From Rubrivivax sp. (GTDB lineage Bacteria; Pseudomonadota; Gammaproteobacteria; Burkholderiales; Burkholderiaceae_C): 46,637 bases of DNA. Of this stretch, positions 24,445 to 45,651 are shown piece after piece. Positions within the stretch are counted from its first letter, which is position 1; the number at the start of each line of letters is the position of its first letter. Where the stretch lies: the NCBI GenBank assembly GCA_021298085.1, contig JAJTDE010000014.1, positions 1 to 46,637 of the forward strand, read 5' to 3'. The notes under the pieces are model-generated. The model worked only from the letters and a program-made list of their open reading frames with translations, was not told the DNA's origin and ran no database searches. The translations under genes were made by a program, and so were the position numbers.

Positions 24445-24451
24445 GCCGGGG

Positions 24452-24505: not shown

Positions 24506-24511
24506 CGGGGC

Positions 24512-26510: not shown

Positions 26511-27146
26511 TCACTTGGTGCCAAAGAGCCGGTCTCCGGCATCACCCAGCCCCGGCAGGATGTAGCCATGCTCATTGAGGCAGCGGTCCACGGCCGCGGT
26601 GTGGACGGGCACATCCGGGTGCTGGGCATGAAAGGCCTGCAGGCCTTCCGGGGCGGCGAGCAGGCAGACCAACCGGATCGATCGGGGCTTCTCGGCCTTC
26701 AGGCGGGTGACGGCGGCGGCGGCCGAGTTGCCCGTGGCCAGCATCGGGTCCAGCACGATGGCGTCGCGCTCATGCATGTCCTGCGGCATCTTGAAGTAGT
26801 ACTCCACGGCCTGCAGGGTGTCGGGGTCGCGGTAGAGGCCCACGTGTCCCACACGGGCGCCCGGGACCACCTCGAGCATGCCATCCAGAAGGCCGTTGCC
26901 CGCGCGCATGATCACCACGAACACCGTCTTCTTGCCGTCGATCACAGGCGACTGCATCGTCTCCAGCGGGGTCTCGATGGTGATCAGCTGCGTGGGCATG
27001 TCCCGCGTGACCTCATAGGCCATCAGCATGGCGATCTCGTGCAGCAGGCGGCGAAAACCCATCGTGCTGACGTCCTTGCGGCGCAGCAGGGTGAGCTTGT
27101 GCTGCAGCAGCGGGTGCTGCATCACGTGGACAGCGGCGGTGGTCAT
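26511..27146 (-). CDS. upp: Uracil phosphoribosyltransferase
   Basis: Converts uracil and PRPP to UMP (pyrimidine salvage), and is the first step of the URC uracil-catabolic route in organisms that have it. The product is 211 residues, the family norm. Motifs are [18 protein letters not shown] at the N-terminus, [21 protein letters not shown], the PRPP loop [13 protein letters not shown] and the uracil-binding C-terminus [18 protein letters not shown]. The start overlaps the stop of the nitronate-monooxygenase-like gene as ATGA, so the two are coupled. A much longer frame upstream is antisense-like and not coding. Confidence 0.97.
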
Positions 27147-28357: not shown

Positions 28358-29845
28358 TCAGAAGCCCATGGGGCTGGCGCAGCGGGGTTGTGTGGTCGCC
28401 TGAAGCCCAGCGCCGCCGTGGGCCGATATCGTGGCCTCCACGCCCTGCTGCAGAACCTGCGCGAGCGTGAGCACCAGCCCGCGGGCGGCGCACTGGGCGC
28501 GTGCCTGTTCGGCCACCTGCGTCATGCAGTGCAGTGTCAACGCCCGCCACTCGATGATCCAGCTGTCGCCCACTTTCCATTCGCGTTGCAGGTCGGGCGT
28601 GGCCCGCGGCACGGCGATGCCGCTGTCCAGCAGCATCGCACCCGCGCGGCCCGCGGCCAGTGCCGTCAGGCCCTGGTCGTCGGCCAGTGCCAGGCCAGCC
28701 TGGGCCAGCGGCTCCAGCAGCGAGAACACCAGCCACTGGGCCGGCTGGTGCAGTGGCAGCCAGCCGCCCGTGCCGGGGTCAACCGCCCGCTCGCCCTCGG
28801 GGGTGCCTTGGCTGCCGTGGACGCCGGGTGACGCGGCGCCGGCCCACAGGTGCGGCCAGACATCGCCCGCGGGCAGGCCGAGCACACGCCCATCGGCGCG
28901 GAAGACCTCCGCCCAGCGGCTCACCACCCGCTCCAGCACCGCCGCAGGGTCCACCGGGACGGGCCCGTCGGGCCCGGCCGGGACCCGCCACGGGTCCAGC
29001 AGCGCGTTGGGGCGTGAACCCGGGCCCTGGCCCTGGGCCTCCAGGCAGCGTCCCCAGCGCTGCAGGGTCGCCGCGCGTGCGTCCAGCCCTGGCAGGGGGT
29101 TGTGCTGGCTGGCTTGAAACAGTGCCCGCAGCGCCGCCGCATCGATGCGGCTGAGCACCCGCGCGTCGACGCGCAAGGGGTCGTCGGCGTCGGCCGAGAA
29201 GCTGCCAGCCATGAAGCCCCGGAGCAGCGCCACCGTCAGGCCTTCGCTGCCGGTCAGGCGCTCGGTAGAAACGTTGGCAGGGATGTCGACGGGGCTGGCC
29301 GGCGCGGGTTCCGCTGGCGGCGCACTCGAGGCCGACGGTGTGTCGGCGCCGTTGCCGCTGGCCTGGTTGAGCATGGCCAGCAGATCGTCGCGCCCCTGGC
29401 GGTGCACGGGCAGGGCCAGGTGGTGGACCGCGTGTGCCCGGTTGTCGTCAAACGACCAGGCCGGCCCCGCCCCATGGCCCATCAGCGCCGCTATGCACGC
29501 GAAGTCCAGCCGTGCGCGCAGTGCATCCGAAGGGCTGCGGCTGGCCAGTGCCTGCTCAAGCTCCTGGCGGCGCTGTCCGAGCTGGCCGTCAAGCTGACGC
29601 CAGACACCCAGCCCGGGCATCTGGGCGCCCATGGGGTGGCTGCACAGCCGGTCGACCAGCTGCTGCACCAACGGTGCTTGGGCTTCCGGGTGCAGCGAGA
29701 ACCAGCCCGAGCGGCCGTCGGCCACCGCGCCGGCCACCGCGGCACTGCGGATGCGGACGGTGCTGGCCAGCCACAGGCTGGCCAGCGGATCGCGGCCTGA
29801 CGGGGCTGGCAGGGGGGTGTCGGCGCTGGAAGACGGTTCGGGCAT
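28358..29845 (-). CDS. URC4/urg3-family protein (DUF1688)
   Basis: Homologue of fungal URC4/urg3, required for uracil catabolism by the URC pathway; its reaction is unknown. From ATG 29845 the product is 495 residues, against about 420 typical. Family segments are FACIAALMGHGAGPAW, SEGLTVALLRGFMAGSFSADADDPLRVD, NPLPGLDARAATL, GDVWPHLWAG, LPLHQPAQWLVFSLLEPLAQAG, LLDSGIAVPR and WIIEWRALTLHCM. Residues about 136-198 are an Ala/Pro/Ser-rich insertion splitting GPAW from SEGLTV. It is the first gene of a minus-strand run with the flavoprotein and upp, supporting a uracil-degradation operon. A URC1-type (GTP-cyclohydrolase-II-like) gene is not in the window. Confidence 0.85.
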   Translation of the reverse strand: MPEPSSSADTPLPAPSGRDPLASLWLASTVRIRSAAVAGAVADGRSGWFSLHPEAQAPLVQQLVDRLCSHPMGAQMPGLGVWRQLDGQLGQRRQELEQALASRSPSDALRARLDFACIAALMGHGAGPAWSFDDNRAHAVHHLALPVHRQGRDDLLAMLNQASGNGADTPSASSAPPAEPAPASPVDIPANVSTERLTGSEGLTVALLRGFMAGSFSADADDPLRVDARVLSRIDAAALRALFQASQHNPLPGLDARAATLQRWGRCLEAQGQGPGSRPNALLDPWRVPAGPDGPVPVDPAAVLERVVSRWAEVFRADGRVLGLPAGDVWPHLWAGAASPGVHGSQGTPEGERAVDPGTGGWLPLHQPAQWLVFSLLEPLAQAGLALADDQGLTALAAGRAGAMLLDSGIAVPRATPDLQREWKVGDSWIIEWRALTLHCMTQVAEQARAQCAARGLVLTLAQVLQQGVEATISAHGGAGLQATTQPRCASPMGF

Positions 29846-30054
29846 GGTTTGTGCAAGGCTTTCGCCCGCGGGTGAGAGCCCTGGGGCAGAGGAGGGCGCC
29901 GGCGTGGCCGGACACCGGACAACCGATCGTAGCGGCCCGCGCCCAAACCTGTGCACGGCGAGCCCTTGCGGCCTTTGACCTGGCCCGCAGTGGCAACGAA
30001 ACCACAGTTGCCCGGCGCCGCGAGCCAATGCGAGCCTTTCCGGTGCGCGCGCGC

Positions 30055-30084
30055 AGGACAAACGCCGGGCACTCGGCCTAGCAT
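30055..30084 (+). promoter_or_regulatory. Candidate promoter of the TonB receptor-BMP operon
   Basis: AGGACA (30055-30060, four of six to -35) and TAGCAT (30079-30084, four of six to -10) are separated by 18 bases. The implied start is near 30091, about 54 bases before the receptor ATG. The match is modest; the position is sensible. Confidence 0.4.
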
Positions 30085-30093
30085 CCCATTCAC

Positions 30094-30109
30094 TTGCATT
30101 TTGTTGCAA
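30094..30109. promoter_or_regulatory. Inverted repeat, possible operator
   Basis: TTGCA-N6-TGCAA (30094-30109) is a perfect five-base inverted repeat in an AT-rich patch immediately after the candidate start site of the TonB receptor operon. A repressor bound here would block transcription. The regulator is unknown; a LacI-type binder is one guess. Confidence 0.4.
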
Positions 30110-30144
30110 ACCGATCAAAGCCATCTTCTTCAGGAGCGCACCGC

Positions 30145-32481
30145 ATGTACCGTTCGACCCCCGCCCAGCCGACGCGCCTGGCCCGTGCTGCGGCCCTGGC
30201 CTGCCTGTCGCTGGCCAGCCCGCTGCTGGCCCCGCTGGCGATGGCACAGACCTCGGGCAGTACTCCAGCCGCCGAGCCCGGCCAGCTGACGGTCATCACC
30301 GTGACGGCCGAGCGCCGCGCCGAGAACATCCAGGCCATCCCGAATTCGGTCAGCACCATCGGCAACGAGCTGCTGGACACCCTGAACACCAGCGGCCAGG
30401 ACATCCGCATGCTGTCGGGCCGCGTGCCCAGCCTGAACATCGAGTCCTCGTTCGGACGGGCCTTCCCGCGCTTCTACATCCGCGGCTACGGCAACACCGA
30501 TTTCCGGCTGAACGCCTCGCAGCCCGTCTCGTTGATCTACGACGACGTGGTGCAGGAGAACCCCATCCTGAAGGGCTTCCCGGCATTCGACCTGGACCGC
30601 ATCGAGGTGCTGCGTGGCCCGCAGGGCTCGCTGTTTGGCCGCAACACCCCGGCCGGCGTGGTGAAGTTTGAATCGGCCCGTCCGCGCCTGGGCAAAACCG
30701 AAGGTTATGCCAGCGCCTCGGTGGGCACCTTCAGCACCGTCAACCTGGAAGGCGCAGCCAACCTGCCCACCGGGCCGACGTCGGCGCTGCGCATCTCGCT
30801 GCTGAACCAGACGCGCAACGACTGGGTGAAGAACACCCAGGCTGGCGAGCCCACGCAAGACCTGGAAGGCTACCGCGACAGCGCCGTGCGCCTGCAGTGG
30901 CTGACCCAGCCCAGCAAGGACTTCAGCGCGCTGGCCAACGTGCACGCCCGTGACTACGACGGCTCTGCCCGCCTGTTCCGCGCCAACATCATCAGCACCG
31001 GCAGCAACAGCCTGGTGCCCGGTTTTGACCCGAAGAAGATCTCCATCGACGGCAAGAACGAGAGCAACCTGCAGAACGTGGGCGCCAACCTGCGCTTGCG
31101 CTGGGGCCTGGGCGGTGGGCTGTCGCTGCACTCGATCACCGGCTACGAAAACGTCAACACCTACAGCCGCGGCGACATCGACGGCGGCTTCGGGGCGTCC
31201 TTCCTGCCGGCATCCGGCCCGGGTTTGATCCCGTTTGCCAGCGAAACCGCCGACGGCATCCCCAAGCACCGCCAGCTGACGCAGGAACTGCGCCTGGAAA
31301 CCGACAACAAGGGGCCGCTGAACTGGCAGGCCGGCTTGTTCTTCTTCGATGAGGACTACCGCATCGAGAGCTTCAGCTACGACTCGCTGAGCCCCACCAA
31401 TGCGCAGGATGGCTACCAGCGCATCCGCCAGAAGAACCGCGCCGTGGCGGTGTTTGGCGCGCTGAACTGGCAGCTCAATCCACAGACGCAGCTGCGCGCC
31501 GGCCTGCGCTACACCAAGGACGACAAGGACCTGACGGTCGAGGCCTACAACACCACGGCCTTTGTGCCCTGCGTGCTGGCGGCCAAGTGCACGCTGGCCC
31601 AGCTGGGGGCCCAGGAGCCCGATGGCCGGTTGGGCGCCTCGCCCAGCGACAGCAAGCTCAGCTGGGACATTTCTGGCTCCTATGCGCTGAACAAGGACGT
31701 CAACCTGTACCTGCGCGCAGCCACGGGCTTCCGCGGCAGCAGCGTGCAGAGCGCCGGCCCCTTCAACGCCAAGTCGGTCGCCGGACCGGAGAACAACACC
31801 TCGGTGGAAGCCGGTGTGAAGGCCGACCTGCTCAACCGCCGCGCGCGGCTGAACGTGAGCGTGTTCGACTACACCGTCAAGGACCTGCAGCTCACCGCCG
31901 TGGGCGGCGCGGGCAATGCCAACATCCTGCTCAACGCGAAGAAGGCCAAGGGCCGCGGCTTCGAGGCCGACATGCAGGCGCTGATCGGCGACAACCTGAT
32001 GGCCAGCCTGGGCGTGGGCTACAACGACACCCGCATCCAGGACCCCAACCTCCTGGTGGCCTTCTGCGCACAGTGCACGGTGACCGACCCGACCGTCAAC
32101 GTCGGCATGCAGGCCAACCCCTCGCTGCGGGCCCGCATCGACGGCAACCCGCTGCCGCAGGCGCCCAAGACCACGGTCAGCTTCACGCTGCGCTGGTCCA
32201 AGCCCACCCCTGACGGCGAGCTCTATGTGCTGACGGACTGGGTCTACCGCAGCAAGGTCAACTTCTTCCTGTATGAAGCGCGGGAGTTTGTCGGGCCGGC
32301 GCTCACCGAAGGTGGCCTGCGCGTCGGTTATGTCTTTGGCAAGGGCAAGTATGAAGTGGCCGGCTTTGGCCGCAACATCACCAACCAGATCCGTGTGGTG
32401 GGTGGCATCGACTTCAACAACAACACCGGCTTCATCAACGAGCCGCGCACCTGGGGTGTGCAGTTCAAGGCCAACTTCTGA
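30145..32481 (+). CDS. TonB-dependent outer-membrane receptor
   Basis: Outer-membrane active transporter of 778 residues. A signal peptide (ALACLSLASPLLAPLAMAQ) is followed by a TonB-box-like stretch (LTVITVTAERR). The plug domain includes IPNSVSTIG, FYIRGYGNTDF, DLDRIEVLRGPQGSLFGRNTPAG. A 22-strand-type barrel with alternating hydrophobics ends in the C-terminal Phe (WGVQFKANF) that marks outer-membrane proteins. ATG 30145 has a CAGGAG site. The last base of its stop is the first of the next ATG (TGATG), coupling it to a BMP-family nucleoside-binding protein. Nucleosides are therefore the inferred cargo. The barrel itself resembles generic catechol/organic-compound receptors and does not prove this. 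Confidence 0.93.
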   Translation: MYRSTPAQPTRLARAAALACLSLASPLLAPLAMAQTSGSTPAAEPGQLTVITVTAERRAENIQAIPNSVSTIGNELLDTLNTSGQDIRMLSGRVPSLNIESSFGRAFPRFYIRGYGNTDFRLNASQPVSLIYDDVVQENPILKGFPAFDLDRIEVLRGPQGSLFGRNTPAGVVKFESARPRLGKTEGYASASVGTFSTVNLEGAANLPTGPTSALRISLLNQTRNDWVKNTQAGEPTQDLEGYRDSAVRLQWLTQPSKDFSALANVHARDYDGSARLFRANIISTGSNSLVPGFDPKKISIDGKNESNLQNVGANLRLRWGLGGGLSLHSITGYENVNTYSRGDIDGGFGASFLPASGPGLIPFASETADGIPKHRQLTQELRLETDNKGPLNWQAGLFFFDEDYRIESFSYDSLSPTNAQDGYQRIRQKNRAVAVFGALNWQLNPQTQLRAGLRYTKDDKDLTVEAYNTTAFVPCVLAAKCTLAQLGAQEPDGRLGASPSDSKLSWDISGSYALNKDVNLYLRAATGFRGSSVQSAGPFNAKSVAGPENNTSVEAGVKADLLNRRARLNVSVFDYTVKDLQLTAVGGAGNANILLNAKKAKGRGFEADMQALIGDNLMASLGVGYNDTRIQDPNLLVAFCAQCTVTDPTVNVGMQANPSLRARIDGNPLPQAPKTTVSFTLRWSKPTPDGELYVLTDWVYRSKVNFFLYEAREFVGPALTEGGLRVGYVFGKGKYEVAGFGRNITNQIRVVGGIDFNNNTGFINEPRTWGVQFKANF

Positions 32482-33461
32482 TGCAGGCGGCGGTACGCCT
32501 TGGGGCGCTGGTGCTGGCGCTATGCGCCGCGGCCGGGTGGGCGGCTGCCCAGCCGGCCGTCATCTACGAACTCGGTGGCAAGGCTGACCGTTCCTTCAAC
32601 CAGGCCGCCTTCCAGGGCGCCGAGGCCTGGAAACGGCAGACGGGCAAGCCTTACCTGGAGTTCGAGATTGGCAACGCCGCGCAGCGTGAGCAGGCGGCGC
32701 GGCGGTTTGCCGAGCGGGGTGCCAACCCCATCGTGGGCATCGGCTTTCCGCAGGCCAGCAGCATCCAGACCGTGGCGCGAGACCACCCTCGCGTGGGCTT
32801 TGCCATCGTCGACGCGGTGGTCGACGCGCCCAACGTCCAGAGTTTTGTCTACCGCGAGCACGAAGCGGCGTTCCTCGTGGGCATGCTCGCGGCCATGGCC
32901 AGCCGCACAGGAACCGTCGGTTTTGTGGGCGGCATGGACATCCCCTTGGTGCGCAAGTACCTCTGCGGCTATGAACAGGGTGTTCGCCACGCCGATGCGC
33001 GCGTGAAGCGGGTGTCCGCCATGGCCGGCAGCACCCCCGCCGCCTGGACAGACCCGGCGCGCGGCGCCGAACTGGCGCGTGCGCAATTGGCGCAGGGTGC
33101 CGATGTGGTGTTTGCCGCCGCGGGCACCACCGGCCTGGGTGCGATGCAGGCCGTGCGGGATGCCGGCAAGCTCAGCATCGGCGTGGACAGCAACCAGAAC
33201 CACTTGCACCCGGGCCATGTGCTGACATCACTCGTCAAGCGTGTGGACCTGGCGGTACAGAGTGCGTTCAACGGGATCAAACCCGGGGTCACGTCCCTGG
33301 GCCTGAAAGAAGGCGGCCTGGACCTGGCGATGGACGAGCACAACCGGGCCCTGGTCACCCCGGCCATGCGCGAGCGCGTGCAGGCTGCACGCGAGGCGAT
33401 TGTCAGCGGCCGGCTGAAGGTGGTGGACTACACGGTGGCCAACCGCTGCGACCTGCCCTGA
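32481..33461 (+). CDS. BMP-family periplasmic nucleoside-binding protein, paralogue 1
   Basis: Periplasmic substrate-binding protein of the BMP/PnrA family, which binds purine or other nucleosides for ABC import. The product is 326 residues with a signal peptide ending GWAAAQ. It lacks a lipobox Cys. Family marks are VIYELGGKADRSFNQAAFQGAE, ANPIVGIGFPQA, EHEAAFLVGMLAAMAS, GFVGGMDIPLVRKY, DVVFAAAGTTG and GVDSNQNHLHPG. By eye well over half its residues are identical to the paralogue starting at 39587. No permease or ATPase follows, so it may hand cargo to the importer encoded 7 kb away. The start overlaps the receptor stop by one base. Confidence 0.92.
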   Translation: MQAAVRLGALVLALCAAAGWAAAQPAVIYELGGKADRSFNQAAFQGAEAWKRQTGKPYLEFEIGNAAQREQAARRFAERGANPIVGIGFPQASSIQTVARDHPRVGFAIVDAVVDAPNVQSFVYREHEAAFLVGMLAAMASRTGTVGFVGGMDIPLVRKYLCGYEQGVRHADARVKRVSAMAGSTPAAWTDPARGAELARAQLAQGADVVFAAAGTTGLGAMQAVRDAGKLSIGVDSNQNHLHPGHVLTSLVKRVDLAVQSAFNGIKPGVTSLGLKEGGLDLAMDEHNRALVTPAMRERVQAAREAIVSGRLKVVDYTVANRCDLP

Positions 33462-33792
33462 GCGGCCTCAGGCTCAGCCTCGCTTGCTGCGCCGCAGCCG
33501 CCAGCGGGTTGACGGCAGCCCGCGGCGACAGCCCGCTGGACAGTGCCAGCGCCAGGTGTTGTTGCTGCCGCAGCCTTTCCAGGCCCATGGCCCACCAGGA
33601 CTCGACAAAGGCCCGCTGCTTTTCCGCCACCATGGCGCGGAATTCGCGCTGGTCGCTGGCCTTGGGGGCTGCCCCGGCCAGGGCAAAGCGGGTGAGGCGG
33701 TGTGACAGCACCTGCGGCACGGCCAGGCTCAGCTCGCTGAGCTGGCGCGCGGCCGTGGTGTGGGACTTGGCGGACTTGCTGACACTGGGCAT
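33403..33792 (-). CDS. Phasin-like polyhydroxyalkanoate granule protein
   Basis: A 129-residue protein with a helical, Ala/Gln/Leu-rich body. The stretch VPQVLSHRLTRFALAG, then SDQREFRAMVAEKQRAFVESWWAMGLERLR, resembles the short phasins that bind polyhydroxyalkanoate granules in Burkholderiales. Recognition is by pattern memory, so the function is tentative. The final about 19 residues (Arg/Pro/Ser-rich) are encoded opposite the 3' end of the BMP gene. They look like read-through after loss of an earlier stop. It lies 15 bases after the dioxygenase-like gene and could share its transcript. Confidence 0.6.
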   Translation of the reverse strand: MPSVSKSAKSHTTAARQLSELSLAVPQVLSHRLTRFALAGAAPKASDQREFRAMVAEKQRAFVESWWAMGLERLRQQQHLALALSSGLSPRAAVNPLAAAAQQARLSLRPLRAGRSGWPPCSPPPSAGR

Positions 33793-33807: not shown

Positions 33808-34674
33808 TCAGGGCAGGAGGAAACCCCGTACCGGCAGTGTGCCATCGCGGCGTATCCAGTTGCTGACAGCGTAGCCGGCAGAGGCGTCGCTGGCGTGCAG
33901 CGTGTAGGCCAGGCGCGAGCGTGGGCTGCGGTTGGCCTGGCTGGCATGCGGCATCAGGCCATGGAACACCACCAGCGTGCCCGCGGTACAGGGCAGCGGT
34001 ACGGCCTCTTCCCAGGTGGGCCAGGGGGTGCTGTCCAGGGGCTGCAGCCAGGTGCGCTGGCCGTCGCGGAAGAAGCGTTCGCGCAGCGCGCCCTGCGGCG
34101 GGCGGTGGCCGCCGGGCAGCATCCACAGGCAGCCGTTGTCGGTGTCGGCGTCTTCCAGTGCAAACCAGAAGCCCATCACCGCACCCTGCTCGCAGTACAG
34201 GTAACTGGCGTCCTGGTGCCAGCGCACAGCCCCGCCAATGCCCGGCTGCTTGCAGATCACCATCGATTGCCACACCTGCGGCTGCGGCATGCCCAGATCA
34301 GCGGCCAGTTCAGCCAGATCCGGGCCGTGTGAAAAGGCTTCGAAGACCGGGTCGACGTCATGCAGCGCGTGGCCGATCTTGTTGATGGCCTGCGGCAGCG
34401 GACGGTTCAGGCGCCCGTCGGCGTCCAGCGCCTCTTCCTCGAAGAAGCAGCGCACCCGGGTGTCGGAGCCGAGGAACCAGTCGTCGCCGTTGCGGCCCTC
34501 GTCCAGCGCCGCGTCGCGCGCAGCAAAGACACCCTGCACATCCGACAGCGCCGTGGTCTCCAGCAGCTGCCGGGTGCGCTGCACCACGCTGGCCACCGAC
34601 GCGGCCGAGCGAAAGCCCGGCAGCGTCAGGTAACCCTGGGCCTCGAACAAGGCCCGCTGGGCGGTGCTCAGCAC
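33808..34674 (-). CDS. Phytanoyl-CoA dioxygenase family protein
   Basis: Fe(II)/2-oxoglutarate dioxygenase of the PhyH family, 288 residues from GTG 34674. The iron ligands are His153 and Asp155 in RWHQDASYL and His243 in MPHASQANRS. Arg254, which would bind the 2-oxoglutarate carboxylate, sits 11 residues later as in the human enzyme. GCLWMLPGGHRPPQG and GTLVVFHGL are also typical. The substrate is unknown; bacterial members hydroxylate diverse small molecules. GTG 34674 starts six bases after the stop of the large TonB receptor, and no ATG is available, so coupled translation from this GTG is likely. Confidence 0.87.
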   Translation of the reverse strand: MLSTAQRALFEAQGYLTLPGFRSAASVASVVQRTRQLLETTALSDVQGVFAARDAALDEGRNGDDWFLGSDTRVRCFFEEEALDADGRLNRPLPQAINKIGHALHDVDPVFEAFSHGPDLAELAADLGMPQPQVWQSMVICKQPGIGGAVRWHQDASYLYCEQGAVMGFWFALEDADTDNGCLWMLPGGHRPPQGALRERFFRDGQRTWLQPLDSTPWPTWEEAVPLPCTAGTLVVFHGLMPHASQANRSPRSRLAYTLHASDASAGYAVSNWIRRDGTLPVRGFLLP

Positions 34675-34681
34675 GGGGGTG

Positions 34682-37600
34682 TCAGAACGAGTAGCGCAGC
34701 GTGATCTGCACCGCCCATTGCGATTCGCCGGCCGTCTGGCGGGTGGTGAGGTCTTGCAGGCTGCCCACCCGGTAGTTGTAGCGGCCCTGGGCATCCACCC
34801 CGGCAAAGTTGACAAAGCTGCGGGTCGACGGGAAGGCGACCTCTTCGATGTGGCCCCAGCGGCTGTTGATCAGGTTGCCCACGTTGAGGATGTCAAAGCT
34901 GATCATCCCCTTGTGGCCGGCCTTGAAGCCCGGCAGTTCCTGGCTGAAGCGGACGTCGAAGGAGTTGACCCAGGGCGCCATCGCCGCGTTGCGACCCACC
35001 ACCCCGCCCTTGGCGGCCGCCAGGGCCGGGTTGGCGTCGACGATCTGCCAGAAGCGCGTCTCTTCGGCGGCGCCGCCAGCAAACACCACTTCGCCGGAGC
35101 CCGGGCCCTTCGGGATGTACATCAGGTCGTTGCCAACCACGCCGTCGCCGTTCATGTCGTTCAGGAAGGTCCAGCTGTAGGGCTTGCCCTTGCGGCCTTC
35201 GTAGAACAAGCCGAAGCTGGTGCGCAGGTTGCTGTCAAACAGGTTGCGTGCCCAGCTCATGCTGGCGCTGACACGGTCGCGGATCAGGTAGTTGGAATTC
35301 GACGCCACGTCCTCGTTCGGGTTGAACACCGCGCGGCTGACCCAGTTGGAGTTCGACACCGACGACGTCAGCGGGCTCACCTCGGTGGCGGATGTGCGGG
35401 TGTAGGCCGCGCTCCAGCTCAGGCCCATCGCGCGGGACTGGCTCAGCGAAAGCGTCAGGGCTTCGCCGCTGCCATTCTTGGTGGGGCTGGCGACCAGCAC
35501 GTTGTTGAAGTTCGGGTTGCTCAGGGCACGGGTGCGCGATTGGCCGGAGGGAATGGCGCAGGCCCCGGTGGTGATGGCGCCGCCGGTGGTGTTCCAGCAA
35601 TCGGTGGCCAGGCTGCGCGGCAGGAAGAACAGTTGCCGTCCATCCGGCCCGACCGAGGTCGGTGCGCCGAGGTTCAGGTGCTGGTGGAACACGCCGTCGT
35701 GCGTCCGTGTGTAGAGCCACTCGGCGCCGAAGGTCATGCGGCCGACCACGGGCAGCGCGGGCAGTTCGGTGTCAAACGCCAGATTGGCCTTCCAGACGGA
35801 CGGCTGCGCCAGGTCCTTGGCGAGGAAGTCGACGTTGGCCGCGGGCGGCTGGCCGGTCAGCGTGGGCTGGGTGTCGGGGTTGGCGTTGAAGCGGGCGTTG
35901 GCGGTGCCGCAGCTGGTGAAGTTGGCGCAGCTGTACGTGCCGACCGCCGCACCGGTGTTGCTGAAGGGGTTGGACAGCCAGACGTTGGCGGCTGCACCCT
36001 GGAACAGGCCGGCACCACCGCGCACCTGCATGCGGCGCTCGGGGTTGCCCAGGTTCCAGTTGAAGCCCAGACGGGGTTGCACCAACTGCTTGCCGTCCAG
36101 CGTCACGGTGTTGTCCAACCCGAAGCCGCCGCGGTTGCGCACGACGTTGGTCCCGCTCACGCCACCAGCCACCGTCGGCGCCGCTGCCGCCGCGCTGTAC
36201 AGCGGTTTCTCCGGCACGTCCTGCTGGTCCACCCGAACGCCGAACATCACGTTCAGGTTCTTGTTCAGCTTGAAGGTGTCCTGCAGAAACAGGCCGGTGT
36301 TGGTGTAGCTCCAGACGGCCACGGCGTCGTTGATGCTGCGCCCGGCCAGCGGCAGCTGGACCTGGTACAGCGACGGACGGCCCAGGCGGAAGTTTTCCAG
36401 CGCCGCGGCCGCCACCACGTCGGCTGACGCGGTGGTGCAGTTGACGGCGGTGGCCTGGAAGCTGTAGGTGCCGTTTTCGCACTGGAAGCGGTACTGGCCG
36501 TTGGTGTCCTGCAGGAAGGCGTTGTAGATGTCGTTCTGCGCAAAATCGGCGCCAAACTTGACCTCGTGGTCACCGCGCACCCAGGTGGCGCCCAGGTAGC
36601 CATCCACCGTCTTGGTGCGCAGCACGTTGAAGTGGCGGCTGCGCTCGGTCCCGAAGTTCAGGTCACGGCTGTTGGCGTTGGTGCCGGCGGGTGAACCCGC
36701 CGGCAGCGCACCGGCGTAACGCAGGGTGATCTGGGGCAGGCGCGTGCCGTTGACCGGGGTGGGCACGCTGTCGTAGTCGCGGCTGCTGAGCTTGAGTTCA
36801 GTGCTGAAGCTGGGTGACCAATCGGCAAACCACTGGCCCACCACACTCTCGACCGTCTTCACCTGGTTGTACCAGAACGAGCTCAGCGACAAGGTGTTGG
36901 CGCCAAACATGCTGTTGGCGGTGATGATGGGCTCGGTCTGGTCGGTCTTGGTGTAGCGCAGGCTGGCGCGGTGGTCGTCGCTGATGTTCCAGTCCAGCTT
37001 GAGCAGCGCGTCCTTCACCACCACCTGCACGTTGCCAGGAATCTCGGAACCGCCGATGTCCATGCCCCAGGTGCTGCGCGCCACGCTGATCACGTCAGTG
37101 ATCATCTGCGGCGTGATGCCCACGTTGGTGGCCGCACTGCCGATGGGCCCGAAATTGGGGCGTGTGCGGTTGCTCTTGTATTCCTCGTAGGCCGAGAAGA
37201 AGAAGAGCTTGTCCTTGATGATCGGGCCGCCGAGCGTGAAGCCCACGGTGGTGTCACGCGACTTGGGCGGATCAAAGAAGGTGTCGGTGGTGCGGTTGTA
37301 GCGTTGGCCGGCAAACTGGTCGTTGCGCCAGGCGTAGTACAGGCTGCCTTTCAGGTCATTCGTGCCGCTCTTGGTGACGGCATTGATGTTGGCGCCGGTG
37401 TAGCCCTTCTGCGTGACGTCGTAGTTGGAGATATTGACCTGCACCGAATCGATGGCGTCGATGGAGATCGGCTGCTTCAGCGTGGGCAGGTTGTTCGACT
37501 CCAGGCCGAAGGTGTCATTGGTGGTGACGCCGTCGATGGTGATGGAGTTGTAGCGGGTGTTCTGGCCCGCGGCGGAGATTTCACCGCGCTCCTTGTCGGT

Positions 37601-38367: not shown

Positions 38368-39450
38368 TCAAGGCGGCGGCAGATGCACCACGTCGGGGGG
38401 CAGAAAACTGGCCCGGGCAGCCTGTTGCGCCATGGTGAGCAAATCCTGTGCACTGAAACCGGCCTCGTGCATCAGCAGCGCCGCTTCCTGCGACATGCTG
38501 GTGCGCGACATCAGCCGGTTGTCGGTGTGGTACGACAGCGAGACCCCGGCATCCCACAGCGCGCGGATCGGGTGTTCGGCCACGGAGCGGGCGGCACCGG
38601 TGTGCACGTTGCTGGTCGGACACACCTCGAGGTGGGTGCCGCGCTCGCGCAGCTCGGCCAGGATGTCGGCCCAACCCGGCGTGCCGATGCGCTGCGCCAG
38701 CTGCACGCCGTGGCCCACCCGGCGTGCGCCCAGGCGCGCCGCCTCGAGCACACGGCGCGCGCCGTCGTCGGCGTCGGCCTCACCGGCGTGCAGGGTCAGC
38801 CCCAGGCCGCCGTCGAGCACCCGTTGCAGCAGGTCGCGGTGCGGGGTGGCTGGCCAGCCGTGTTCGGGCCCGGCCAGGTCAAAGGCCACGACGCCGCGCC
38901 CTTGCCAGCGCAAGGCCAATTCGGCGCTGCGGGTGATGGCCTCCACCCCGTGGTTGCGCATCGCGCAGACGATCAGCCCTGACGGCAGCGGGCTGTCGGC
39001 CAGGCCCTGCAGCAGGGCCTCGACACAGGCGTCGCCGCGGATGCCAAGCGGTTCAAACAGCAGGGGCGCAATGCGCAGTTCGGCCAGCTGCGCCCCGTCG
39101 GCACGCGCGTCCTCGGCGCTCTCGAAGGCCACCTGGCGCAGGGCCGCCGGGCCGGCCATGGCCTCGACCGTCAGCCCGAAGCCGCGCAGGTATTCCTCCA
39201 GCGAGCCGGCGTGTGCCCGGGCGTCGAACCAGCGGGCCAGCCCGGCTTCGTCGTCGGCTGGGCTGGCCATGCCGCGCGACCGCAGCAGCGCCAGCAAGGT
39301 GGCTTCGCGCAGGCTTCCGTCGAGGTGGTCGTGCAGCACCACCTTGGGCAGTGCCCGCGCGGCGTCCCAGACGGGCCGCGGCACCGAGCCGGGCTGCCGT
39401 GGCGTCGAGGGGCCGCTCAGCGGCACGGCGGGGGAAGCCTGGGCATTCAT
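38368..39450 (-). CDS. add: Adenosine deaminase
   Basis: Zinc enzyme converting adenosine to inosine (and deoxyadenosine to deoxyinosine). The product is 360 residues. Metal and catalytic motifs are His40 and His42 in VVLHDHLDGS, the HAGE motif (LTLHAGEAD), HGVQLAQR, CPTSNVHTG and the Asp in SYHTDNRLMS. It could also be an adenine-deaminase-like relative, but LHDHLDGS followed by HAGE and HTDN is the adenosine type. It is divergent from the nucleoside importer operon with about 136 bases between. It would supply inosine to the phosphorylase encoded there. Confidence 0.93.
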   Translation of the reverse strand: MNAQASPAVPLSGPSTPRQPGSVPRPVWDAARALPKVVLHDHLDGSLREATLLALLRSRGMASPADDEAGLARWFDARAHAGSLEEYLRGFGLTVEAMAGPAALRQVAFESAEDARADGAQLAELRIAPLLFEPLGIRGDACVEALLQGLADSPLPSGLIVCAMRNHGVEAITRSAELALRWQGRGVVAFDLAGPEHGWPATPHRDLLQRVLDGGLGLTLHAGEADADDGARRVLEAARLGARRVGHGVQLAQRIGTPGWADILAELRERGTHLEVCPTSNVHTGAARSVAEHPIRALWDAGVSLSYHTDNRLMSRTSMSQEAALLMHEAGFSAQDLLTMAQQAARASFLPPDVVHLPPP

Positions 39451-39586: not shown

Positions 39587-40597
39587 ATGTCATTTCTGCT
39601 CAACCGCCCTGCCGCCCCGAACCTGCTGCGCCGTGCGCTGGTGACGCTGGCCGCGACTGCCGGTGTGGTGGCTGCCCATGCGCAGTCCCAGCCGGCCGTC
39701 ATCTACGACATGGGTGGCAAGTTCGACAAGTCATTCAACCAGGCCGCCTTCAACGGCGCTGAAGCCTGGAAAAAGGGTGCGGCCGGCCGCAACTACCTGG
39801 AGTTCGAGATCTCCAACGCCACCCAGCGTGAGCAGGCCCTGCGACGCATGGCCGAGCGCGGCGCCAACCCGATCGTGGCGATCGGCTTCTCTCAGGGCGC
39901 TGCCGTCGAGAAAGTGGCCAAGGAATTTCCGAAGATCAACTTCGCCATCATCGACTTTGTCGTCAACCTGCCCAATGTGCAGAGCATTGTCTTCAACGAA
40001 CACGAGGGCAGCTTCCTGGTGGGCATGATGGCCTCGATGGCCAGCAAGACCGGCAAGGTCGGCTTCATCGGCGGCATGGACATCCCGCTGATCCGCAAGT
40101 TCCAGTGCGGCTTCGAGCAGGGCGCCAAGTACGCCAACCCCAAGGCCGAGGTGTCGGCCAACATGACCGGCACCACCCCGGCCGCCTGGAATGACCCTGC
40201 CCGCGGCGCTGAACTGGCCAAGGCCCAGTTTGCCAAGGGCGTGGACGTGGTGTTTGCGGCGGCCGGCGGCACCGGCACCGGTGTGTACCAGGCCGCCAAG
40301 GACGCGGGCAAGCTGGCCATCGGCGTGGACAGCAACCAGAACCACCTGCACCCGGGCACCATGCTGACCTCCATGGTCAAGCGGGTGGACGTGGCCGTGA
40401 CCAACGCCTTCAGCGGCGTCAAGCCCGGGCTCACCACCATGGGCCTGAAGGAAAACGGGGTGGACGCCGCGATGGATGAGCACAACGCCAAGCTGGTGTC
40501 GGCCGACATGAAGAGCAAGATCGCCCAGGCCCGTGCCGACATCATCAGTGGCAAGGTCAAGGTGGTCGACTACATGGCCGCCAACAAGTGCAACTGA
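39587..40597 (+). CDS. BMP-family periplasmic nucleoside-binding protein, paralogue 2
   Basis: Substrate-binding protein of the nucleoside ABC importer, 336 residues, with a signal peptide ending VVAAHAQ and no lipobox. Diagnostic stretches are VIYDMGGKFDKSFNQAAFNGAE, GIGF-type ANPIVAIGFSQG, GFIGGMDIPLIRKFQ, DVVFAAAGGTGTGVYQ and GVDSNQNHLHPGTMLTSMVKRVD (in pieces). A CAGGAG site precedes ATG 39587. It is first in the operon with the ATPase, two permeases, cytidine deaminase and purine nucleoside phosphorylase, and is a close paralogue of the protein encoded at 32481. Confidence 0.95.
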   Translation: MSFLLNRPAAPNLLRRALVTLAATAGVVAAHAQSQPAVIYDMGGKFDKSFNQAAFNGAEAWKKGAAGRNYLEFEISNATQREQALRRMAERGANPIVAIGFSQGAAVEKVAKEFPKINFAIIDFVVNLPNVQSIVFNEHEGSFLVGMMASMASKTGKVGFIGGMDIPLIRKFQCGFEQGAKYANPKAEVSANMTGTTPAAWNDPARGAELAKAQFAKGVDVVFAAAGGTGTGVYQAAKDAGKLAIGVDSNQNHLHPGTMLTSMVKRVDVAVTNAFSGVKPGLTTMGLKENGVDAAMDEHNAKLVSADMKSKIAQARADIISGKVKVVDYMAANKCN

Positions 40598-40623: not shown

Positions 40624-42162
40624 GTGACCGCCCCTGCCGTCGAGCTGCGCCAGATCGACAAGCGGTTTGGCGCTGTGCACGCCAACCGCGCGGTGGACCT
40701 CACGGTGGGTGCCGGCACTGTCCACGGCATCGTCGGTGAGAACGGTGCCGGCAAGAGCACGCTGATGTCCATCCTGTACGGTTTCTACCAAGCCGACAGC
40801 GGCAGCATCCGCATCCAGGGGCAGCCCGCCGAGATCCGCAACGCCCACGACGCCATTGCGCAGGGCATCGGGATGGTCCACCAGCACTTCATGCTGGTGG
40901 ACAGCCTGTCTGCGCTGGACAACGTGATGCTGGGCTCCGAGCCCGGCTGGCGGCTGCAGCCGGCACGCCAGCGCGTGCGCGAGCAGTTGCTGGCGCTGAT
41001 GCAGCAGACGGGCCTGCAGGTTCGCCTGGAAATGGCCGTGGAAGACCTGCCCGTGGGCGAGCGCCAGCGGCTGGAGATCCTCAAGGCGCTGTACCGCGGC
41101 GCCCGCATCCTGATCCTGGACGAGCCCACTGCCGTGCTCACGCCCCAGGAGACCGACCAGCTCTTTGTCACGCTCAAGGGCCTGAAGGCCCGCGGCACGA
41201 CCATCCTGCTGATCACCCACAAGCTGCGCGAGATCATGGCGCTGTGCGACCAGGTCACGGTGATGCGCGCGGGTGCGGTGGTGCTGGACGTGCCCATCGG
41301 CAACACCTCGGTGGACGACCTGGCGCAGGCCATGGTGGGCCGCAAGGTCAACCTGGGCCGTCGGCCCGGTGCGCAGGCCCGCCCCCCAGGCGGCCACGCC
41401 GTCCTGCTGAGCGCCGAGGGGCTGACCTGGCGCGACAGCCTGGGTGTTGCCCGTCTGTCCGAGGTGTCGCTGCAGCTGCGGGCGGGAGAGATCGTCGGCA
41501 TTGCCGGCGTGTCGGGCAACGGGCAGAGCGAGCTGCTGGACGTGCTGTCGGGTCTTCTCGCGCCCCAGCAAGGGCGGCTGATGTTGGGTGGCCAGCACTT
41601 CGAACCGTCGCGCTGGTTGACACCCTCCGTGGCACGCAACTTGCGCCTTGCGCATGTGCCTGAAGACCGTCACCACCGCGGCCTGGTGTTGCCCTTTCCG
41701 GCCTGGGAATCGGCGGCCCTGGGCTACCAGAACCAAGCCTGCTACCGCCGCGCCGCCTTCATGGACGGCCAGCGCCTCAAGGCCGACACCGCGCAGATGA
41801 TGGCGCGCTACGACGTGCGCCCGCGCGACGAGCGCCTGCGCACCTCGAAGTTCTCAGGCGGCAACCAGCAGAAGCTGGTGCTCGCGCGCGAAGCCGTGCA
41901 TGAGCCGAAGGTGTTGCTGGTGGGCCAGCCGACGCGTGGGGTGGACATCGGTGCCATCGAGTTCATCCATGAGCGGCTGCGTGCGATGCGCGACGCCGGC
42001 GGTGCGGTGCTGGTGGTGTCGTCAGAGCTCGACGAAGTCCTGGCCCTGGCCGACCGCTTACTGGTGATGAACGCCGGGCGGGTGGTGGGTGAGCTGCCCA
42101 TCGAGGCCTGCACCGAATCGGCACTGGGCCGCCTGATGGGCGGCGCCGATGCGGCGGCGTGA
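40624..42162 (+). CDS. Nucleoside ABC importer ATP-binding protein (NupA/YufO-like)
   Basis: Double-domain ATPase, 512 residues, starting at GTG 40624. The first Walker A is GENGAGKST (38-46), Walker B LILDEPTAVLTPQE. The second half has GVSGNGQSE (Walker A-like, without the invariant Lys) and the signature FSGGNQQKLVLARE. The first-half signature LPVGERQRLEIL is degenerate, as usual in this family of sugar/nucleoside importers. It powers transport for the adjacent two permeases. The BMP gene lies 26 bases upstream. Confidence 0.95.
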   Translation: MTAPAVELRQIDKRFGAVHANRAVDLTVGAGTVHGIVGENGAGKSTLMSILYGFYQADSGSIRIQGQPAEIRNAHDAIAQGIGMVHQHFMLVDSLSALDNVMLGSEPGWRLQPARQRVREQLLALMQQTGLQVRLEMAVEDLPVGERQRLEILKALYRGARILILDEPTAVLTPQETDQLFVTLKGLKARGTTILLITHKLREIMALCDQVTVMRAGAVVLDVPIGNTSVDDLAQAMVGRKVNLGRRPGAQARPPGGHAVLLSAEGLTWRDSLGVARLSEVSLQLRAGEIVGIAGVSGNGQSELLDVLSGLLAPQQGRLMLGGQHFEPSRWLTPSVARNLRLAHVPEDRHHRGLVLPFPAWESAALGYQNQACYRRAAFMDGQRLKADTAQMMARYDVRPRDERLRTSKFSGGNQQKLVLAREAVHEPKVLLVGQPTRGVDIGAIEFIHERLRAMRDAGGAVLVVSSELDEVLALADRLLVMNAGRVVGELPIEACTESALGRLMGGADAAA

Positions 42163-42228: not shown

Positions 42229-43356
42229 ATGAGCCGCCCTGTTGAATTGCCGCGCTGGATGGAGCTGGCGCTGCTGCCTGCCTTCAACGTGGGCGTGGCC
42301 CTTGTGGTGGCCGGGCTGGTGGTCTGGAGCATCGGCCTGGACCCGTTGCAGGTGCTGTCGCTGCTGATCAAGGGCGCCTTTGGCAGCAAGAACGGCCTGG
42401 GCTACACGTTCTACTACGCCACCACCTTCATCTTCACGGGCCTGGCCGTGGCCGTGGCCTTCCATGCCGGCCTGTTCAACATCGGCGGTGAAGGCCAGGC
42501 GACCATGGGGGGCCTGGGTGTGGCACTGGTGGGCTTGTCGCTCGGGGGTCAGTGGCCGGCGCCCGTGGTGGTGCTGTTGATGGTGCTGGCGGCCATGGCC
42601 ATGGGCATGCTGTGGGCGTCGGTGCCAGGGGTGCTGCAGGCCTACCGGGGCAGCCACATCGTCATCACGACGATCATGTTCAACTTCATCGCCGCGGCAC
42701 TGCTGGTCTACCTGCTGGTCAACGTGATGAAGGCCCCCGGCAGCATGGCGCCTGAGACCCGCGCCTTCAGCGACAGCCCGCTGCTGCCGGGCATGCATAC
42801 CGTGTTGCAGGGCCTGGGCCTGGACTGGCCGCGAACCCCGCTGAACGCCACCGTGCTGCTGGCCTTGCTGGCCTGTGGGGCCGTGCAGGTGTTCCTCTGG
42901 CGTACCCGTGCAGGCTATGCCCTGCGGGCCACGGGCTTTGCGCCTGAGGCGGCCCGTTATGGCGGCATGCTGCCGCAACGCCAGGTGGTCTGGGCGATGG
43001 CACTGTCGGGGGCGCTGGCGGGTCTCGTGGGTGTCAACGAGATTGCGGGTGTGCACAACCGCCTGCTGCCCGAATTCACCGCGGGCGCGGGCTTTGCCGG
43101 CATTGCCGTCAGCCTGATCGGCCGCAACCACCCGGTGGGCATCGTGCTGGCGTCGCTGCTGTTTGGTGCGCTCTACCAGGGTGGCGCTGAGCTGGCCTTT
43201 GAGGTGCCCGGTTTCAGCCGCGAGATGGTCGTCACCTTGCAGGGCTTGATCGTGCTGTTTGCCGGGGCGATGGCAATGGTCGCCGCCCCGATGTTTGCCC
43301 GCCTGCATGCGGCCTGGCCGCGGCCCACGCGGCCGACGCCGGCCGCTGGTTCCTGA
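42229..43356 (+). CDS. Nucleoside ABC importer permease 1 (NupB/YufP-like)
   Basis: Inner-membrane permease of the BPD_transp_2 family, 375 residues with about nine hydrophobic helices. Family features include FIFTGLAVAVAFHAGLFNIGGEGQATMGG, YRGSHIVITTIMFNFIAAAL, RATGFAPEAARYGG and the coupling-region-like LAGLVGVNEIAGVHNRLLPEFTAG, then GFAGIAVSLIGRNHPVGI. It pairs with the next gene to form the channel. ATG 42229 is 66 bases after the ATPase. Confidence 0.94.
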   Translation: MSRPVELPRWMELALLPAFNVGVALVVAGLVVWSIGLDPLQVLSLLIKGAFGSKNGLGYTFYYATTFIFTGLAVAVAFHAGLFNIGGEGQATMGGLGVALVGLSLGGQWPAPVVVLLMVLAAMAMGMLWASVPGVLQAYRGSHIVITTIMFNFIAAALLVYLLVNVMKAPGSMAPETRAFSDSPLLPGMHTVLQGLGLDWPRTPLNATVLLALLACGAVQVFLWRTRAGYALRATGFAPEAARYGGMLPQRQVVWAMALSGALAGLVGVNEIAGVHNRLLPEFTAGAGFAGIAVSLIGRNHPVGIVLASLLFGALYQGGAELAFEVPGFSREMVVTLQGLIVLFAGAMAMVAAPMFARLHAAWPRPTRPTPAAGS

Positions 43357-43370: not shown

Positions 43371-44348
43371 ATGGACGAGACCTTCATGGGCACCCTGATC
43401 GGCTCCACGCTGCGCGTGAGCACACCCCTGATCCTGTGCGCCCTGGCCGGCACCCTGAGCGAGCGCGCCGGCGTGATCGACCTGGGCCTGGAAGGCAAGA
43501 TGCTGATGACGGCCTTCGCTGCCGCGGCAGCCGGCGCCGTGACGGGTTCGCTGCCGCTGGCCTTGCTGGCGGCGCTGGCGGTGGGGCTGGCCTTGTCGAT
43601 GCTGCACGGTTACGGCTGCGTGAGCCACCGCGGCGACCAGGTCGTCATGGGCATGGCCATCACCATGACGGCCGCCGGGCTCACGGTGGTGCTGGGCATC
43701 GCCTGGTTTCAGCAGGGTGGCCAGACCCCTACCCTGCCCGACAGCGTACGCCTGGACGGGCAGCTGGAAGGCCTGGGCGAGGCCTTGTCGCAGTGGCCCG
43801 TGCTGGGCAAGGCGCTGGCGCTCGGCTTCACAGGGCACAACGTGATGGTCTATGCGGCGCTGCTGGCGGTGCCGGCGGTGTGGTGGCTGCTCTACCGCAC
43901 GCGCTTCGGGCTGCGCCTGCGTGCCACCGGCGAAAACCCCGCCATGGTGGATGCCGCGGGGGTGTCGGTGAAGGCACTGCGCTACCAGGCCCTGGCCCTC
44001 AACGGTGTGCTGGCCTCGCTGGCCGGCGCCTACCTGGTCATCGGCCTGAACCCGGCCTTCATTCCCAACATGACGGCCGGCCGCGGCTTCATGGCGCTGG
44101 CCGCGATGATCTTCGGCAAGTGGCACCCGGTCGGCGCGTTCTGGGCCTGCCTGTTGTTTGGCTTCCTGGACGCGCTGGCGATCCGGCTGCAGGGCGCCAG
44201 CCTGCCCGCGGTGCTGGGCGGTGGCGATGTCCCTGTCCAGGCCATGCAGGCGCTGCCCTATGTGCTGACGGTGGTGCTGCTGGCGGGTTTCATCGGCCAT
44301 GCCCGCGCGCCCCGGGCGCTGGGCCAGCCTTATCTGAAGGAGCGTTGA
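43371..44348 (+). CDS. Nucleoside ABC importer permease 2 (NupC/YufQ-like)
   Basis: Second permease, 325 residues, with about eight hydrophobic helices. It shows TLIGSTLRVSTPLILCALAGTLSERAGVIDLGLEGKMLM in parts, VSHRGDQVVMGMAITM, RATGENPAMVDAAGVSVKALR and AAMIFGKWHPVGAFWACLLFGFLDAL, all typical. It begins 14 bases after permease 1. Its stop overlaps the cytidine deaminase start (TGATG), tying import to catabolism. Confidence 0.94.
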   Translation: MDETFMGTLIGSTLRVSTPLILCALAGTLSERAGVIDLGLEGKMLMTAFAAAAAGAVTGSLPLALLAALAVGLALSMLHGYGCVSHRGDQVVMGMAITMTAAGLTVVLGIAWFQQGGQTPTLPDSVRLDGQLEGLGEALSQWPVLGKALALGFTGHNVMVYAALLAVPAVWWLLYRTRFGLRLRATGENPAMVDAAGVSVKALRYQALALNGVLASLAGAYLVIGLNPAFIPNMTAGRGFMALAAMIFGKWHPVGAFWACLLFGFLDALAIRLQGASLPAVLGGGDVPVQAMQALPYVLTVVLLAGFIGHARAPRALGQPYLKER

Positions 44349-44785
44349 TGAACGGTCTTCCCAGCGCGCCTGCCGAGCTCGATGCGGCCACCGCCGGGGC
44401 CCTGGTTCAGGCCGCGCGCGGGGTGCGCGAACGCGCGTATGCCCCCTATTCCGGCTTTGCCGTGGGCGCCGCGCTGCTGGACGAACACGGCCGAATCCAC
44501 ACGGGCGTCAACGTGGAAAATGCCGCGTATCCGCAAGGCCTGTGCGCTGAGGCGTCGGCCTTGGCCCAACTGGTGAGTTCAGGCTCAAGGCGCATCATGG
44601 CGGTGGCGGTGGTGGGGCAGGCCGATGAGCCCGTGACACCCTGCGGTGGCTGCCGCCAGAAGCTGCGCGAGTTTGCGTCGCCGCAGGTTCCCGTGCTGGT
44701 GGCCGACATGCAGTCGCTGCGGGCCCGCTTTACGATGGATCAGCTCCTGCCGGCGAGTTTCGGGCCGGCCCACCTTCTGCCATGA
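44348..44785 (+). CDS. cdd: Cytidine deaminase
   Basis: Zinc hydrolase converting cytidine and deoxycytidine to uridine and deoxyuridine. The product is 145 residues, the size of the short tetrameric type. The zinc and catalytic motif is CAE at 66-68 (LCAEASAL) with the second pair Cys99 and Cys102 in PCGGCRQ. YAPYSGFAVGAALL and the substrate-binding VNVENAAYP are intact. It overlaps the permease by one base upstream and the phosphorylase by four bases (ATGA) downstream. Confidence 0.96.
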   Translation: MNGLPSAPAELDAATAGALVQAARGVRERAYAPYSGFAVGAALLDEHGRIHTGVNVENAAYPQGLCAEASALAQLVSSGSRRIMAVAVVGQADEPVTPCGGCRQKLREFASPQVPVLVADMQSLRARFTMDQLLPASFGPAHLLP

Positions 44786-45651
44786 CCACACCCACCCCTG
44801 ACAACCTGGACGAGCGGGTCACCCGCAGCGCCGATCACATCCGCAGCCGCCTGGGCGCGCGCCAGCCGCGTGTGGCCGTGCTGCTCGGCTCCGGCTGGGG
44901 CGGGCTGGCCGACCAGGTCCGGGAGCCCATCGATTGGCCCTATGCCGAACTGCCGGCCTTTCCTGAACTGCAGATCACCGGCCATGCGGGGCTGCTGCGC
45001 TCCGGCTGGATTGGCCCGACGGAAGTGCTGGTGCTGGCCGGACGCAAGCATGTCTATGAGGCGGGTGACGCGTCGGCCATGAAGGGTGCTGTGCGCACAC
45101 TGGCACGGCTGGGCGTGCAGACCCTGGTGCAGACCAATGCCGCCGGCAGCCTGGACACCGCGCTGCTGCCCGGCCAGGTGATGCTGATCAGCGACCACCT
45201 CAACATGACCCAGATGTCGCCGTTGTTGGGTGAACGGGGTGATGCGCGGTTTGTCGGTTTGACCGACGCTTACGACCCCCGCTTGCGACAGCAGGCGCTG
45301 GCCGCCGCGCAGGCGCTGGGCCGGCCGTTGAGTGAAGGGGTCTACGCCTGGATGCTGGGGCCGCAGTTCGAGACGCCGGCGGAGATTCGGATGCTGCAGG
45401 TGCTGGGCGCGCGTGCGGTGGGCATGAGCACCGTTCCGGAAACCATCCTGGCCCGCCACGCCGGGCTGCGGGTGCTGGCCTTGTCCCTGGTGACCAACCT
45501 GGGGGCGGGGCTGAGCGCCGAGAGCCTCAGCCATGCGCACACCCTGCACACGGCTCAGCAAGCGGCGGCTGGTGCCTGCCAGTTGCTCGCAGCGGTGGTC
45601 AGCTGTCTGTCAGGGCCGCCCCTGGTGGTGGGTGTGTCAGGGGCTGCGTGA
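44782..45651 (+). CDS. Purine nucleoside phosphorylase (trimeric type)
   Basis: Phosphorolyses inosine/guanosine (and deoxy forms) to free base and (deoxy)ribose-1-phosphate. The product is 289 residues of the trimeric PNP class. Motifs are VLLGSGWGGLAD (phosphate-binding Ser), VLAGRKHVYEAGD, QTNAAGSLD, GPQFETPAEIRML with the purine-binding Glu, GMSTVPE, and SLVTNLGAG with the Asn that prefers 6-oxopurines. Together with Add it would convert adenosine to hypoxanthine. The last about 15 bases overlap the BLUF-like gene on the opposite strand. It is the last gene of the importer operon. Confidence 0.93.
   Translation: MTTPTPDNLDERVTRSADHIRSRLGARQPRVAVLLGSGWGGLADQVREPIDWPYAELPAFPELQITGHAGLLRSGWIGPTEVLVLAGRKHVYEAGDASAMKGAVRTLARLGVQTLVQTNAAGSLDTALLPGQVMLISDHLNMTQMSPLLGERGDARFVGLTDAYDPRLRQQALAAAQALGRPLSEGVYAWMLGPQFETPAEIRMLQVLGARAVGMSTVPETILARHAGLRVLALSLVTNLGAGLSAESLSHAHTLHTAQQAAAGACQLLAAVVSCLSGPPLVVGVSGAA

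Follow-up and report, generated by a model that had tools for sequence, protein, structure and literature searches.

A predicted nucleoside-type TonB-dependent receptor paired with a BMP-family binding protein in Rubrivivax sp.

The stretch of DNA analysed here (the window) comprises 46,637 nucleotides from Rubrivivax sp. (contig JAJTDE010000014.1 of assembly GCA_021298085.1). On its forward strand it encodes a TonB-dependent receptor (TBDR; P0001, 30145..32481) followed directly by a BMP/PnrA-type periplasmic binding protein (P0002, 32481..33461), a predicted nucleoside binder. We consider it likely that the receptor is of a nucleoside type and works together with BMP proteins, the ligand being a prediction. 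The receptor would be a TonB-energised outer-membrane importer of nucleosides or of close relatives that contain a nucleoside. Once in the periplasm, the ligand would be passed to two sister BMP proteins, the first co-translated with the receptor and the second encoded in an importer operon, and both would feed the same BMP-type ABC importer encoded 7 kb downstream. The nucleosides would then be degraded by the adenosine deaminase, cytidine deaminase, purine-nucleoside phosphorylase (PNP) and uracil enzymes encoded nearby. In other words, the whole would resemble a Tsx-plus-PnrA route in which an energised receptor replaces the channel.

The receptor, its linked BMP protein and the nucleoside pocket

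The receptor gene extends from the ATG at 30145 to the TGA at 32479-32481 and encodes 778 amino acids with both TBDR-defining Pfam domains, i.e. the Plug (PF07715, E 1.3e-14) and the beta-barrel (PF00593, E 1e-32). It is the only close copy in its genome, the second-best match being 30% identical. Residues ~95-149 are highly conserved among 16 diverse sequences, which is compatible with a single class of ligand. The structure model is of moderate quality (mean pLDDT 69.5, pTM 0.74) and poor in the plug region, where much of residues 94-145 has a pLDDT below 50. The Foldseek matches of this model were TBDRs, headed by FyuA (4epa, TMq 0.68); neither the model nor the fold comparison reveals the ligand. 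The SusC/RagA model scored 39.6 bits, the cut-off being 368.

The BMP gene encodes 326 amino acids, and its first base is the final base of the receptor stop codon. This TGATG overlap, already noted in the preliminary description, was confirmed at 32479-32483 of the forward strand. The Bmp domain (PF02608, E 5.7e-52) was recognised at 177 bits with a curated cut-off of 24.1, and the relatives in the PDB are BmpD, PnrA and BmpA. The importer-operon BMP had been called a close paralogue, which agrees with the 63% identity between the two proteins.

Residues of the BmpA nucleoside pocket are named in PMC13325309. Mapped by hand from alignments, they correspond to F39, D111, Y160, W189, V235, D236 and K253 of the linked BMP, and Asn28 of BmpD corresponds to N40. 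The aromatic pair and the Asp/Lys ribose contacts are kept (F39, W189, D111, D236, K253), and both the linked and the importer BMP retain the stacking and ribose-contact positions of BmpA and BmpD. A wider alignment contained 24 BMP proteins labelled as receptor-adjacent (the one from locus L013 in fact belongs to an importer) and 11 importer BMPs. All 35 agree at the positions that correspond to Phe27, Asp98, Phe176 (as Trp), Val224, Asp225 and Lys242. At those of Asn28 and Phe151 the 11 importer proteins do not vary, in contrast to the 24 adjacent-labelled ones, where the former is occupied by N (13) or G (11) and the latter by F (15), V (8) or Y (1). Since the ribose contacts are kept and the base-side positions drift, the base preference of the linked BMP probably differs from that of the importer BMP.

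Conservation of the pair and the genes beside the receptor's relatives

The receptor was searched for in a family sample of 299 genomes, of which 56 gave a match at a threshold of 1e-40. There were 64 receptor matches besides the window; 60 were analysed (55 full relatives with 46-72% identity and 5 distant TBDRs), and 4 partial or distant ones were left out. The genes of each locus were identified by tblastn and Pfam. When named public genomes are added to the family sample, the receptor and BMP genes adjoin on the same strand in 20 distinct loci including the window, which speaks against chance. The TGATG overlap is found in 6 of these (the window, L147, L149, L172, L185 and L190), a gap of 2-4 nucleotides in 7 (L012, L017, L021, L151, L152, L154 and L157) and a longer gap in 6 (L009, L010, L145, L150, L153 and L184; 0.9 kb in L153), the spacing in L011 being ambiguous. 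Locus L013, tagged as adjacent in the BMP tree and alignment, is not counted among the 20 because its BMP belongs to the importer. In the BMP tree the receptor-linked proteins group in a single clade with an SH-aLRT support of 100 (23 rows, 20 distinct). Three further genomes come from the same genus as the window: G195 and G269 have the pair, and G094 has no receptor or BMP match. The receptors of G195 and G269 lie in a different part of the receptor tree, yet their BMP proteins belong to the same linked-BMP clade. A search for such pairs in relatives had been proposed as a test by which the earlier idea could fall, and the pairing proved to be conserved. Nevertheless, the BMP gene lies immediately downstream of the receptor in only 6 of the 55 family relatives; the pair is therefore one version of a wider theme.

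A BMP match at 1e-70 was found in 47 of 54 receptor genomes (including two partial receptor matches, G104 and G281) and in 26 of the 245 others, i.e. 47 genomes have both, 7 the receptor only, 26 the BMP only and 219 neither. Five of the seven receptor-only genomes carry NUP and PNP genes beside the receptor; the remaining two are G160 (93% complete, with the pyrE arrangement described below) and G104 (76% complete, partial receptor).

The neighbourhoods of the receptor's relatives were compared with those of other TBDRs. The case set consisted of 70 loci, 55 from the family and 15 from elsewhere in the order (13 genomes), and the query families were BMP, PNP, NUP, nucleoside phosphorylase, pyrE, Urc1, Urc4, uracil phosphoribosyltransferase (UPRT) and adenosine deaminase. 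The Urc names and the uracil-catabolism pathway are our presumed labels, the models actually used being DUF1688, GTP cyclohydrolase II and UPRT. As controls we took 60 other TBDR loci in 24 of the same genomes, chosen by us and not at random from the best-scoring PF00593 places among the matches listed; two such places (in G269 and G195) were left out because they lie inside the receptor's own neighbourhood. Nucleoside or pyrimidine genes were found in 46 of the 70 case loci (44 within 4 kb) versus none of the 60 controls (Fisher 1.1e-17). With the 29 pyrE loci scored as misses, the counts were 17 of 70 and 0 of 60 (Fisher 1.0e-5), neither value being corrected for shared ancestry. With a wider query set and a looser threshold the counts were 49/70 for the cases, 2/60 for the controls, 0/5 for the distant TBDRs and 37/80 for a set of named loci, 14 of which share receptor DNA with the 70-locus set.

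The arrangement of the neighbours varies with the branch of the receptor tree. NUP and PNP_UDP_1 genes stand beside the receptor in 8 loci (L026 by Pfam, the others by tblastn), and an IMPDH/GMP-reductase-domain gene lies immediately upstream of it in L015 and L018. The xth-receptor-pyrE arrangement has pyrE on the receptor strand in 28 of 29 loci, with a median of 115.5 bases between matches and two outliers at 1.3 and 6.4 kb. In L083 the receptor is accompanied by BMP-type ABC genes and two nucleoside hydrolases. All five named loci of the Oxalobacteraceae have at least one nucleoside gene: L198 (Duganella) encodes an adenosine deaminase, a nucleoside hydrolase, the receptor, a PfkB kinase and a Xan_ur_permease, L203 has a nucleoside-hydrolase-like gene, and BMP genes are found in L195, in L220 as a BMP-ABC set and in L212 together with PNP and PfkB.

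Two side observations concern these neighbourhoods. A LacI-family gene at L054:7329-8426 (minus strand) lies between the receptor and a BMP importer and could be a regulator of this system. The gene after the receptor in two Lysobacteraceae (L162:10456-12087 and L215:10270-11883), on the receptor's strand, encodes a similar-looking protein of about 540 amino acids in both; the label of a xanthine/uracil permease, which came from recall, was not confirmed by Pfam (empty for both) or the PDB (empty for L215, the only one compared) and was not used.

The known nucleoside channel Tsx was found in 4 of the 299 family genomes. All four lie outside the 54 receptor genomes, and the channel does not occur in the window's genome. 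In G243, which has no receptor match at 1e-40, one strand carries in this order genes for Indigoidine_A (which we take to be of PsuG type), PhyH, BMP, ATPase, permease, permease and Tsx, and the importer proteins are 71% (BMP), 68% (ATPase), 63% and 68% (permeases) identical to those of the window. The nucleoside channel thus closes the importer operon in a genome that lacks the receptor; this is a single case, Tsx and BMP being on separate contigs in G039. Taken in outline, the chain proposed in the preliminary description, from a TonB-dependent nucleoside receptor through BMP to the importer, agrees with the conserved pairing, the nucleoside-gene contexts, the pocket positions and the Tsx gene of G243; in the family sample, direct adjacency of the pair is limited to the minority of relatives given above.

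Several points weigh against a nucleoside ligand. Besides the hand-picked controls and the shared ancestry, the case-control contrast is inflated because the case loci themselves supplied the query families. The positive loci are concentrated in one family, i.e. 45 of the 55 family loci and one (L083) of the 15 from elsewhere in the order, and the two control hits with the wider query set were cytidine-deaminase-like matches. No nucleoside gene was found nearby in 43 of the 80 named loci, which include all 22 from gammaproteobacteria (19 Lysobacterales, 2 Nevskiaceae, 1 unplaced). The pyrE loci share the housekeeping order xth-TBDR-pyrE-gatB, and this arrangement is possibly one coincidental insertion. 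Uracil breakdown may be incomplete in the window's genome, judging from a Urc1 search that found no homologue there (it was run without a positive control) and from a DUF1688 protein that is 36% identical to the copy in L009. The nearest solved folds and the generic family matches are siderophore receptors. Finally, nucleosides are small enough for porins, and therefore a TBDR is not obviously needed for them.

Some of these points would suit a conventional receptor for siderophores or vitamins that came to lie beside nucleoside genes by chance or regulation, namely the folds and the absence of nucleoside genes near 14 of the 15 out-of-family loci of the order and all 22 gammaproteobacterial ones. 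We regard this as improbable, as nucleoside genes are found repeatedly, in several arrangements and at least two bacterial families, but near none of the 60 control TBDRs, and the scores against siderophore-receptor families are far under cut-off (e.g. TIGR01783, 101.7 bits versus 223.5).

The porin argument leads to another explanation, i.e. that the receptor imports nucleotides, oligonucleotides or nucleoside conjugates, which as larger ligands of nucleotide type cannot pass porins, and that periplasmic enzymes trim them to nucleosides for the BMP proteins. TBDRs classically carry porin-excluded ligands, identical gene contexts would be expected, and by eye both nucleoside hydrolases of L083 start with signal-like stretches. 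We still think it unlikely, if slightly less so than a siderophore or vitamin: Tsx, a nucleoside channel, ends the G243 operon, and no recurrent extracellular nuclease or 5'-nucleotidase neighbour turned up in an analysis in which no search was aimed at these families, the exceptions being the divergent DNA-repair gene xth of the pyrE arrangement and one 5_nucleotid_C gene in L025.

A nucleoside-like micronutrient, such as a modified nucleoside (e.g. pseudouridine or queuosine) or vitamin B6, would fit the Indigoidine_A gene, again presumably of PsuG type, that accompanies the importer in L224, the PfkB kinase of L212 and queG near the receptor in L026. The nearest NCBIfam model for the BMP is also a putative B6 binder, although the score is 78.8 bits and the cut-off 400. 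The adenosine and cytidine deaminase, PNP and uracil genes, however, indicate common nucleosides, and we give the micronutrient the same small chance as the siderophore or vitamin.

The importer operon, salvage genes and flanking sequence

The importer was placed correctly at 39587-44348 by the preliminary description, from the ATG of its BMP gene to the end of the permease genes, but the operon is longer than stated there. It comprises, all on the plus strand, the predicted nucleoside-binding BMP (39587..40597, PF02608, E 2.9e-60), a double ABC ATPase (40624..42162, two PF00005 stretches), two permeases (42229..43356 and 43371..44348, both PF02653), a cytidine deaminase (44348..44785, PF00383, E 1.7e-17) and PNP (44782..45651, TIGR01698, 313.5 bits, cut-off 302.6). 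The last two genes each overlap the preceding one, the cytidine deaminase gene overlapping the stop of permease 2 and the start of PNP. An adenosine deaminase gene (38368..39450, minus strand, PF00962, E 1.1e-69) is divergent from the operon.

Three genes diverge from the receptor, namely a DUF1688 (Urc4-type) gene (28358..29846, minus strand, start chosen by eye; PF07958, E 7.3e-54), a nitronate monooxygenase gene and a UPRT gene (26511..27143, minus strand, start by homology; TIGR01091, 260.4 bits, cut-off 208.35), with the nitronate monooxygenase in the middle. Among the receptor's relatives Urc1 and Urc4 are kept together, and L017 has Urc1, Urc4 and UPRT all near the receptor. In two Piscinibacter loci (L145 and L147) the elements form a contiguous island, i.e. 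Urc4, Urc1 and PhyH, then receptor, BMP, adenosine deaminase and importer.

The next gene past the receptor-BMP pair, on the opposite strand, encodes a PhyH-type Fe(II)/2-oxoglutarate dioxygenase (33808..34674, minus strand, start by homology; PF05721), with further copies at L017:7435-8289 and L224:2644-3516. Its closest solved relative is human PHYHD1 (2opw; E 1.5e-53 for the window copy, 5e-62 for that of L017), with which the HxD motif and the distal H and R align by eye. PhyH is present in 6 of the 70 case loci and 16 of the 80 named loci, and stands beside the importer in L224. This recurrence hints that the PHYHD1-like group acts on nucleosides or nucleobases. To our knowledge the human enzyme has no known substrate, and the linked gene provides a lead on it.

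From these elements a fuller picture can be drawn, to which we give a little under an even chance. The receptor would belong to a hitherto unassigned proteobacterial TBDR family that is dedicated to nucleosides, is exchangeable with Tsx, is paired with a duplicated BMP that has drifted on the base side of its pocket, and stands at the head of an island for purine and pyrimidine salvage in which the PHYHD1-like dioxygenase acts on a nucleoside or nucleobase.

Upstream of the receptor the expectations of the preliminary description were met in part. It had let the feature begin at 30055, ahead of the start codon, and had named a promoter-like pair, of which a sigma-70 scan of 29800-33700 found none. 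The inverted repeat that it mentioned, TTGCATTTTGTTGCAA, does exist at 30094-30109; its pattern, picked post hoc, occurs once in the window versus 0.04 expected, and a similar repeat (spacer 4-7) was found in none of the 70 upstream regions of the receptor's relatives. A shared operator for the pair and the importer was rejected, since the repeat is not found upstream of the importer.

We also note two features apart from the pair. A second large outer-membrane receptor, Oar-like and with CarboxypepD_reg and OMP_b-brl_4 domains, is encoded between the pair and the importer (34682-38125, minus strand), and a relative with 72% identity also follows PhyH in L150, a locus of a Rubrivivax metagenome-assembled genome. 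The only Rfam match of the window, far upstream of the pair, is a SAM_alpha riboswitch (24437-24512, minus strand, 36.4 bits, gathering threshold 36), directly upstream of an alpha/beta hydrolase gene (23247-24428) that is perhaps a methionine gene.

Relation to known transport systems

TBDRs are normally associated with the uptake of iron or vitamins. The entry of nucleosides through the outer membrane of Gram-negative bacteria is as a rule ascribed to passive channels like Tsx, and Bacteroides scavenge ribose and nucleosides with SusC/SusD-type systems. Among the literature matches listed, no title or abstract opening assigned nucleosides to a proteobacterial TBDR, nor was a nucleoside-specific proteobacterial TBDR claimed in the available parts of PMC9870897, PMC8027193, PMC7093131 and PMC13325309. 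If our reading is true, an orphan TBDR family would gain a substrate, an energised receptor would allow bacteria in dilute water or soil to scavenge nucleosides at very low concentrations, and the receptor could admit nucleoside-analogue compounds.

The general fold is shared with FyuA, Fiu, FoxA and PqqU according to Foldseek, whereas the identity in those alignments is 13-16% and the neighbours identified here are nucleoside genes. The Bacteroides SusC/SusD systems are similar in that TonB-dependent uptake is tied to nucleoside breakdown, but the partner found here is a BMP protein (PF02608) and not SusD. Tsx and the receptor have in common the predicted outer-membrane step for nucleosides, and Tsx occupies the closing position of the importer operon in G243; it is, however, a small passive channel, whereas the protein described here is a TBDR with a plug domain. 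There is also a likeness to PnrA, BmpD and BmpA and their ABC importers, with which the system shares the BMP family, the pocket positions and an operon in which a double ATPase is accompanied by two permeases. It differs from them in that Trp replaces the second stacking Phe in all 35 close copies, and in that a second BMP gene, without permeases of its own, is joined to an outer-membrane receptor.

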